Shown: positions 59,410 through 62,014 of the stretch, piece after piece
Layout: each line of letters begins with the position of its first letter
Position numbering within the stretch: the stretch's first letter is position 1
Assembly (NCBI RefSeq): GCF_001625215.2
Contig: NC_030381.2
Span: forward strand, 39,244,689-39,308,688
From: Daucus carota subsp. sativus
Taxonomy: Eukaryota; Streptophyta; Magnoliopsida; Apiales; Apiaceae
Direction: 5' to 3'
DNA: 64,000 nt
Made by a program: the position numbers and the translations under genes
The notes under the pieces: model-generated
Database searches by the model: none
What the model saw: only the letters and a program-made list of their open reading frames with translations
Told to the model about the DNA's origin: nothing

Positions 59410-59417
59410 TATAAAAG
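59410..59417 (+). promoter_or_regulatory. Putative TATA box of the bZIP gene
   Basis: TATAAAAG followed by a CT-rich stretch. It predicts transcription from about 59440 and a leader of roughly 550 bases. A possible leader intron runs from about 59471 (GTAAGTTTCTC) to 59604 (TTTTTCAG). Confidence 0.6.
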
Positions 59418-59749
59418 TCTGCTCCTATCTCTTACGTTACCTTCTTTCCGTCCCGTAGTTTCATCGTACGTGTAAGTTTCTCTCCTCTTTCTCTCTTATG
59501 TTTGATTGTTGTCTTTCTGTTTATGTTTATGTTTATGTCTTGTCTATGCTTGTGTTTATGTTTATGTATTTAATAGATCTGATTATGTTCTGTTTATTTT
59601 TCAGATTTTGCTGTTGATCTCCTTACATCGATCGGTTAGCTTACGATAAACCTGTTCACCGATAGCTTCTTGTCTTAAAATAATTTTGAAAAATTTATTT
59701 TTAAATATATGTGTAATCTGTGTATTTAGATGTTAGGTGTAATGATCCG

Positions 59750-59827
59750 ATGATTTTCATGCGTCGTATTCGAATTCTTCACTCATTCTCCGTTGTCTAT
59801 CTCTACTGGTTCTACGTTTTTTCATAA
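59750..59827 (+). promoter_or_regulatory. Conserved sucrose-control upstream open reading frame (SC-uORF)
   Basis: This 25-codon frame in the bZIP leader runs from an ATG at 59750 (second in-frame ATG 59759) to a TAA at 59825-59827, 164 bases before the main ATG. Its last residues read 'SFSVVYLYWFYVFS' and then stop. In Arabidopsis bZIP11, bZIP2, bZIP53 and relatives the conserved uORF ends 'SFSVVFLYWFYVFS', and high sucrose makes the nascent peptide stall ribosomes and shut off main-frame translation. Only one residue of that 14 differs (Phe to Tyr). An RR-I-R stretch precedes it, as in the known peptides. Another tiny ATG frame (59730, ATGTTAGGTG) ends just upstream. Confidence 0.9.
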
Positions 59828-59991: not shown

Positions 59992-60429
59992 ATGGCATCA
60001 GTACAGAATCAAGTTAGTTCAGGCTCTGATGGTGATTTACGGTATGCGGCTTTTGATGAGAAGAAGAGGAAGAGGATGATTTCCAATAGGGAATCGGCAA
60101 GGAGGTCTCGTATGAAGAAGCAGCAGCATGTTGATAAACTGATTGCAGAAATGAGCGAGTTGCAAAGCCAGAACAAGGTGGTTATGCAGAAGATTAATGA
60201 AGCGACTGATAGATTTGTTGGTGTTTCGTCTGAGAATAATGTGTTGAGAGCTCAGCTTTCGGAGTTGACTGATAGGCTGTACTCACTTAACTCGGTGCTG
60301 CATATGGTGGAGGAGGTGAGTGGGCTTGCTATGGATATTCCTCAGTTGCCGGATACTTTGATGGAACCGTGGCAGCTTCCATGTCCAGCACAACCAATCA
60401 CGACATCTGCCAATATGTTCAACTTCTGA
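59992..60429 (+). CDS. bZIP53: Group S1 bZIP transcription factor, bZIP53-like
   Basis: This intronless 145-residue protein has an ATG at 59992 and is one residue short of Arabidopsis bZIP53. The basic region is at about 24-44 ('KKRKRMISNRESARRSRMKK', invariant Asn32 and Arg40). The leucine zipper starts at Leu50 and continues through 'NNVLRAQLSELTDRLYSLNSV'. The tail 'MEPWQLPCPAQPI' ending 'ANMFNF' mirrors bZIP53 'NPWQMPCPMQPI' and 'ADMFDC'. S1 factors pair with group C bZIPs and act on ACTCAT and G-box promoters in low-energy, amino-acid and seed programmes. The leader SC-uORF supports S1 membership and predicts repression by sucrose. bZIP2, bZIP11 and bZIP44 relatives are alternatives. Confidence 0.92.
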   Translation: MASVQNQVSSGSDGDLRYAAFDEKKRKRMISNRESARRSRMKKQQHVDKLIAEMSELQSQNKVVMQKINEATDRFVGVSSENNVLRAQLSELTDRLYSLNSVLHMVEEVSGLAMDIPQLPDTLMEPWQLPCPAQPITTSANMFNF

Positions 60430-60456
60430 ATGATGGTGCTGCTGCTGGAGGGATTT

Positions 60457-60578
60457 GCTATATAGTTCTATCGGTCATGTTTAGTGATATTCTGTCTGGT
60501 ATTGCTAATAAGTGGTTGCTATATGGTTATATTGGTCATGTTTAATGATATTCTGTCTAGTATTGCTAATAAGTAGTT
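60457..60578. repeat. Diverged 61-bp tandem duplication in the bZIP 3' region
   Basis: Two units start GCTATATAGTTCTATCGGTC and GCTATATGGTTATATTGGTC and stay aligned to AATAAGTGGTT and AATAAGTAGTT. Several substitutions separate them, so the duplication is older than the one that follows. It probably lies in the 3' untranslated region. Confidence 0.85.
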
Positions 60579-60732
60579 AAATGTTTATGTTATCCTATGT
60601 TAGGATGTTATGCATTTGGTTTGATCATGTATCAAGGAGATTGGGTTTCGACATATTTGATGTTTTAGTTTCATGGATTGCCTGCCCTTTTGTTGTTCAT
60701 ACTTTTTTTATCTTATTGTGAAATGTTCAATG

Positions 60733-60828
60733 TTGGATTGCTGGTAGTTTAGTTTGTTCGGTGTTATCCATTAGTAAACGTTGGATTGCTGGTAGTTTAG
60801 TTTGTTCGGTGTTATCCATTAGTAAACG
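60733..60828. repeat. Perfect 48-bp tandem duplication
   Basis: The unit beginning TTGGATTGCTGGTAG and ending CCATTAGTAAACG occurs twice without differences, 60733-60780 and 60781-60828. It lies about 300 bases beyond the bZIP stop codon. Confidence 0.9.
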
Positions 60829-61069: not shown

Positions 61070-62014
61070 AGTTAAATAGCGTTTTGGTCATTCAATTGAC
61101 TGGAAACTTGCAATTGGGTCATCTAACTCAAAACGCTTTCATTCACATTATTATATTTTTAAAAAATTTCATTCAGGCACTGGCCGTTACACCCTGTTAA
61201 AAAAATGACGGAAAGCTGTCTAAGTTTCGTAACTTGGCTCAAATAAATCCACCGTGGCATGTACATTCAGCTAAAGCGGTAATTTGGTCACTTAACTGAC
61301 TACAAACTTGCAATCGGGTCATCAAACTCAAATTTTTTTTTATTTAGGTCATTTATCATAATATCCGTTAAAAATTGAAAAAATAAATAAATTAAAAGTT
61401 GTCATGCAACACCTTTTTTCCTCTTTTAAAAATTTCGAAACTTATTAATAAATGAAACAAATACATTCACATAAAATCAATAATTTCGCCCACAAAAACT
61501 TAATCTATATTGTGGTCTTTTTTTGACAGAAATCTATATTGTGGTCTTAAGATATATAAAATGATAAGAGATAAACACAAATTAAGTTTTTGTGGGTGAA
61601 ACTATTGATTTTATGAGTATGTATGTGTTTCATTTATTAATAAATTTTAAAAAATTTAAGAGAGGAAAAAAGGTGCTGCATGATAGTTTTTAATACTTTT
61701 TTTTTCAATTTTTAACCGAATTTATGATAAGTGACCTAAATGAAAGTTTTTTGAGTTTGATGACCTTATTGCAAGTTTGTATTCAGTTAAGTGATCAAAA
61801 TGCTGTTTCGACTGACTGTACATGCCACGGTGGATTTATTTAAGCCAAGTCACGAAGCTTAGTCAGGTTTCCGTCAAATTTTTAACGGAGTGTAACGGCC
61901 AGTGACTTGAATGAAAATTTTTACGTGTATAATGATGTGAATGAAAACTTTTTAAGTTGAATGACCCAATTGCAAGTTTCCGATTAGTTGAATGACCAAA
62001 ACGCCATTTAACCA
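61070..62014. mobile_element. Foldback element, about 945 bp, long inverted arms (Mutator-like)
   Basis: The left side, GTTAAATAGCGTTTTGGTCA, and the right side, TGACCAAAACGCCATTTAAC, start arms that stay complementary for several hundred bases (for example ACTTGCAATTGGGTCAT with ATGACCCAATTGCAAGT, and CATGCCACGG/CCGTGGCATG pairs). The arms meet at about 61500-61540. The flanks CTGGCAAAGG (61060-61069) and CTGACAAAAG (62015-62024) match at 8 of 10, as expected for an aged Mutator target duplication. No protein is encoded. Inside each arm the phrase 'aacttgcaaT/Cgggtcat' occurs twice, so the arm itself has a repeated structure. Confidence 0.8.

Follow-up and report, generated by a model that had tools for sequence, protein, structure and literature searches.

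An HG1-type sucrose-control upstream reading frame with tyrosine at position 34 in front of a carrot S1-type bZIP gene

The closest described systems are the sucrose-control upstream open reading frames (SC-uORFs) of plant bZIP genes. All five Arabidopsis S1 genes (bZIP11, 2, 44, 1 and 53) are listed as HG1. The AtbZIP11 leader has four uORFs, with weak starts at uAUG1 and uAUG2a (PMC3020687). Among these, uORF2b, which overlaps uORF3 and uORF4, is responsible for the repression by sucrose (PMC1896003). At high sucrose, the sucrose-control peptide halts the ribosome (PMC11120861), and the sucrose effect on the AtbZIP11 leader is two- to three-fold (PMC8795868). The residues of the AtbZIP11 uORF reported as needed are Ser-29, Ser-31, Leu-35 and Tyr-39 (PMC4960570). 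Even with only Leu-35 and Tyr-39 retained, conifer uORFs still mediated the response, two conifer leaders having been shown by assay to confer sucrose repression; a stop codon directly after residue 42 is described as invariable in angiosperms (PMC4960570). Sucrose repression through the SC-uORF was also shown by assay for tobacco tbz17, in which the effect was about four-fold, light versus dark, and mutating both Met codons abolished the sucrose response (PMC3310857).

Here we describe a reading frame of this kind in a 64,000-nucleotide stretch of carrot DNA (the window). We consider it highly probable, from the sequence and by analogy, that an S1 bZIP gene here carries, in its leader, a working HG1 SC-uORF that lowers bZIP translation at high sucrose.

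Identity of the reading frame and constraint on its peptide

The reading frame, its conserved core and the main reading frame downstream lie as follows.

59750-59827, + strand: SC-uORF of 25 codons, MIFMRRIRILHSFSVVYLYWFYVFS, with a TAA stop
59783-59824, + strand: conserved C-terminal core SFSVVYLYWFYVFS, positions 29-42 of AtbZIP11 (numbering of PMC4960570)
59798-59800, + strand: Tyr-34 codon TAT, from the core codon alignment
59992-60429, + strand: main ORF encoding a 145-aa bZIP protein (PF00170 bZIP_1, 2.1e-11)

A second in-frame ATG lies inside the SC-uORF at 59759, and 164 nt separate the SC-uORF from the bZIP main ORF. The window gene is of the S1 bZIP type, probably of the bZIP53 subgroup, and its main protein probably resembles AtbZIP53. 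The main ORF starts in the context GAA ATG G, which is strong by the classes of PMC3020687. Downstream of the gene, we noted a long foldback at 61071-62012 with nested inverted-repeat arms of 158, 132 and 105 nt that are 83-86% complementary, resembling a foldback transposable element. Two tandem duplications also lie 3' of the bZIP stop, at 60455-60576 (61 nt, 90%) and 60729-60824 (48 nt, 98%).

To place the uORF in a family, we searched 4022 six-frame segments of at least 10 aa with a profile of ten paralogous uORFs from which the window copy had been left out. The window uORF ranked first with an E value of 6.7e-14, against 0.023 for the runner-up, which rules out a chance ORF at 59750-59827. 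Together with the PF00170 match downstream, this result confirms what the first-pass annotation had proposed, namely a 25-codon uORF of the sucrose-control type in front of a bZIP gene. By its sequence, 59750-59827 is thus an ordinary HG1 SC-uORF, and a known family gains one gene. A Pfam search with the uORF peptide returned no family at E values up to 1, and a PDB match to scFv16 (E 0.019, whole sequence) was judged to be chance. Six forms of the uORF peptide had no match in a search of literature text, figures excluded.

The peptide is under constraint. Across the 14-codon core, pS was 0.58 and pN 0.14 (11 genes, 55 pairs). With gaps left out, DNA identity between the window gene and its C2 paralogue was 66/75 (0.88) in the uORF, 0.69 in the 150 nt upstream (79/114 ungapped positions, with many gaps), 0.70 in the spacer and 0.81 in the main ORF. 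The corresponding values for the C3 paralogue were 0.81, 0.63, 0.70 and 0.71. Core changes, given as synonymous/amino-acid, numbered 2/2 for window-C2, 3/4 for window-C3 and 3/2 for C2-C3. Within these three genes, pS (0.21-0.32) exceeds pN (0.06-0.12) on few changes, and the constraint argument therefore leans mainly on the wider 11-gene set. Constraint of this coding type implies that the SC-uORF is translated.

Variation of the peptide among the carrot genes

When the genome was searched with the uORF peptide, the window uORF itself and five further places came up, each of which adjoins a bZIP match. A pattern scan of 15 bZIP loci, taken from 20 listed matches with the five weaker ones left out, found the peptide class at 11; this count is a lower bound, as the searches score best candidates only. 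In a tree of 15 rows, the four bZIP loci lacking the peptide (L015-L018) separate from the 11 at a weakly supported branch (66/90). Searches with two other family peptides added two weak places, on C4 (E 0.082) and on C3 at 55.99 Mb (E 0.129, with two TGA inside), and we dropped both as members because the bZIP basic-region pattern was found in neither stretch. We took a further pattern match, on the opposite strand of L014, to be chance and set it aside. When viral contigs and bacterial and archaeal contigs were scanned with the main protein, 3 and 31 pattern matches, respectively, came up but no confirmed relative, as expected for a plant gene. In poplar, only five of ten S1 genes have the peptide uORF (PMC11120861), so loss is common outside this genome.

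Three of the 11 genes, those of the window, C2 and C3, have Tyr at position 34 of the peptide, and the remaining eight have Phe. When a tree was built from the 11 main proteins, the three Tyr genes formed one clade (support 96/97), and a single old change therefore suffices to explain them; in the 15-row tree with outgroups, the trio does not resolve as a clade. The first-pass annotation had counted one Phe-to-Tyr change relative to Arabidopsis, and the last 14 residues do differ at one place from the C-terminal string of the Arabidopsis bZIP11 uORF. The residue numbers given in PMC4960570 fit this string if its end is residue 42. On that numbering, the window core has all four needed residues, and TAA follows residue 42 immediately. 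The view of Tyr as a notable change of a residue needed for stalling is not supported: position 34 lies outside the four needed residues, and 3 of the 11 genes have Tyr there. We likewise rejected a fresh mutation or new defect of the arrest core, as Tyr is common to one clade of three genes. As read from the alignment and the 11-protein tree, Tyr-34 is an old, conservative and probably tolerated change and a trait of the clade.

The other members of the Tyr clade have changed further. Trp-37 and Phe-38 are altered in both the C2 and C3 genes, and both residues are kept in the window copy. The stop directly follows residue 42 in nine of the 11 genes, the exceptions being C3 and C5. The window gene thus has the best-preserved SC-uORF of its clade, given the changes at 37 and 38 in its two sisters and the lost stop position in C3; these same changes suggest that the function of the peptide in the clade may be loosening. 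The two SC-uORFs with a stop shifted 3' of the usual place span L006:1218-1322 (C3, 64.30 Mb) and L008:1198-1335 (C5, 27.69 Mb). Such natural variants within one genome, comprising Tyr-34, altered Trp-37 and Phe-38 and two moved stops, could reveal which residues of the peptide the arrest depends on.

The SC-uORFs also vary in length. Outside the Tyr clade, the C9 uORF has 28 codons and the other seven have 35-45. Within the clade, the C2 uORF has 24 codons from the homologous start, or 33 from a further in-frame ATG, and that of C3, with its stop moved, has 34. At 25 codons, the window uORF is indeed shorter than the 42-residue Arabidopsis uORF2, as had been pointed out, but the shortness carries less weight than this comparison implies. 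It is mild, since the form active in sucrose repression in Arabidopsis is uORF2b, and the sucrose-control peptide is put at 28 residues in a review (PMC8795868).

One alternative explanation is that the SC-uORF represses constitutively, through uORF load or nonsense-mediated decay, the answer to sucrose having been lost in the Tyr clade via Tyr-34 and the shorter N-terminus. The restriction of Tyr-34 to this clade and the alterations of the sisters at 37, 38, 40 or the stop would fit such a loss, and transcripts with conserved-peptide uORFs have been linked to decay in Arabidopsis, where bZIP53 mRNA is an XRN4 substrate (PMC6755094). However, the four needed residues are intact, the window copy keeps Trp-37, Phe-38 and the stop, and the within-clade excess of pS over pN, albeit on few changes, also speaks against it. 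We therefore regard constitutive repression as improbable and favour a uORF that still answers to sucrose.

The leader, its short uORFs and the proposed switch

Upstream of the SC-uORF, the leader has the following features.

59410-59415, + strand: TATAAA, a likely core promoter inferred from consensus and from alignment with the TATAAA of the C2 paralogue
59472-59604, + strand: predicted 5'-leader intron by splice consensus, GTAAG to TTTTTCAG, with eight ATGs inside
59709-59729, + strand: six-codon uORF MCNLCI, the stop of which abuts the next ATG
59730-59753, + strand: short uORF MLGVMIR, which can also be read as MIR from an ATG at 59742 in the same frame; the stop TGA (59751-59753) and the SC start overlap to form ATGA

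The TATAAA at 59410 is the only one found between 59380 and 59760. The region of C2 that matches the predicted intron contains one GTAAG and one TTCTTCAG; the C3 leader has no matching intron arrangement. Retention of the predicted intron would add upstream start codons, and splicing would remove the eight ATGs. The TATA and splice consensus signals upstream would place the SC-uORF within the transcript. It is very unlikely that most mature transcripts instead lack the SC-uORF, because they start downstream of it or because it is spliced out, and that it would therefore rarely act: the predicted intron and the TATAAA just 64 nt before the SC ATG of the C3 sister could be read that way, but in the window the uORF comes 340 nt after the TATAAA and 145 nt after the end of the predicted intron, two features with C2 counterparts, and the coding-type constraint points to translation.

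For the preferred reading, in which the SC-uORF is transcribed and acts on the bZIP, the published Arabidopsis, tobacco and conifer work suggests how translation, stalling and the response to sucrose would be connected. Scanning ribosomes would translate the SC-uORF; at high sucrose, the nascent peptide would halt the ribosome at the SC-uORF stop codon, and bZIP translation would be lowered. Yamashita (2017) reportedly obtained a stop-codon result for the arrest. At low sucrose, the bZIP would be made either by leaky scanning past the weak uORF starts or by reinitiation over the 164-nt spacer. Reinitiation is possible in wild-type Arabidopsis over spacers of at least 50 nt, as found with a simplified leader (PMC3020687). 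The first-pass annotation had the gene translated only when sucrose is low, which is too strong, as the effects reported for AtbZIP11 and tbz17 are partial.

The short uORF that overlaps the SC start is a recurrent feature of these leaders. The arrangement in the window leader is denoted ATGnnnnnATGA, and in C2 and C3, too, an ATG stands 8 nt ahead of the SC ATG, with the ATGA overlap as in the window. Ten of the 11 leaders carry a short uORF that is out of frame with the SC-uORF and overlaps its start, compared with 3.4 expected from dinucleotide shuffles. These are the leaders of the window gene (59730-59753), L005, L006, L007, L008, L009, L011, L012, L013 and L014; the overlapping short uORF was absent from the C9 leader (L010), the sole exception among the 11. 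The overlap uses one frame in the Tyr clade (3/3) and another in the seven other leaders, in which the overlapping uORF ends (last base) 17-26 nt from the A of the SC start. The shuffle probability of 1.5e-5 counts every gene as a separate case and so makes the evidence look stronger than it is; the genes are related, and independent cases are few. In the Tyr clade, a purine at -3 precedes the ATG of the overlapping uORF in 3/3 genes and the SC ATG in 1/3.

One tentative interpretation, which we think rather unlikely, is that S1 leaders hold a second gate, such that ribosomes using the short overlapping uORF miss the first SC start codon. If this were true, the choice between two start codons, besides the peptide, would set the strength of sucrose repression of the bZIP. 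The recurrent overlap with the SC start adds a testable element to the possible tuning of the switch.

Comparison with described systems

The window leader has much in common with the Arabidopsis S1 genes of the HG1 group: an SC-uORF placed before an S1-type bZIP, a conserved C-terminal core with the four needed residues, the stop position, a weak start context and several uORFs in the leader. It differs from Arabidopsis bZIP11 in having Tyr for Phe at position 34 and in having 25 codons rather than 42 (28 from the second AUG). Within Arabidopsis HG1, the most apt comparison would be the uORF of bZIP53.

Parsley belongs to the carrot family. Its CPRF6 is named among plants with a conserved SC-uORF peptide (PMC7470447). 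In tobacco tbz17, too, the SC-uORF has two Met codons, and it is the second of three uORFs (PMC3310857).
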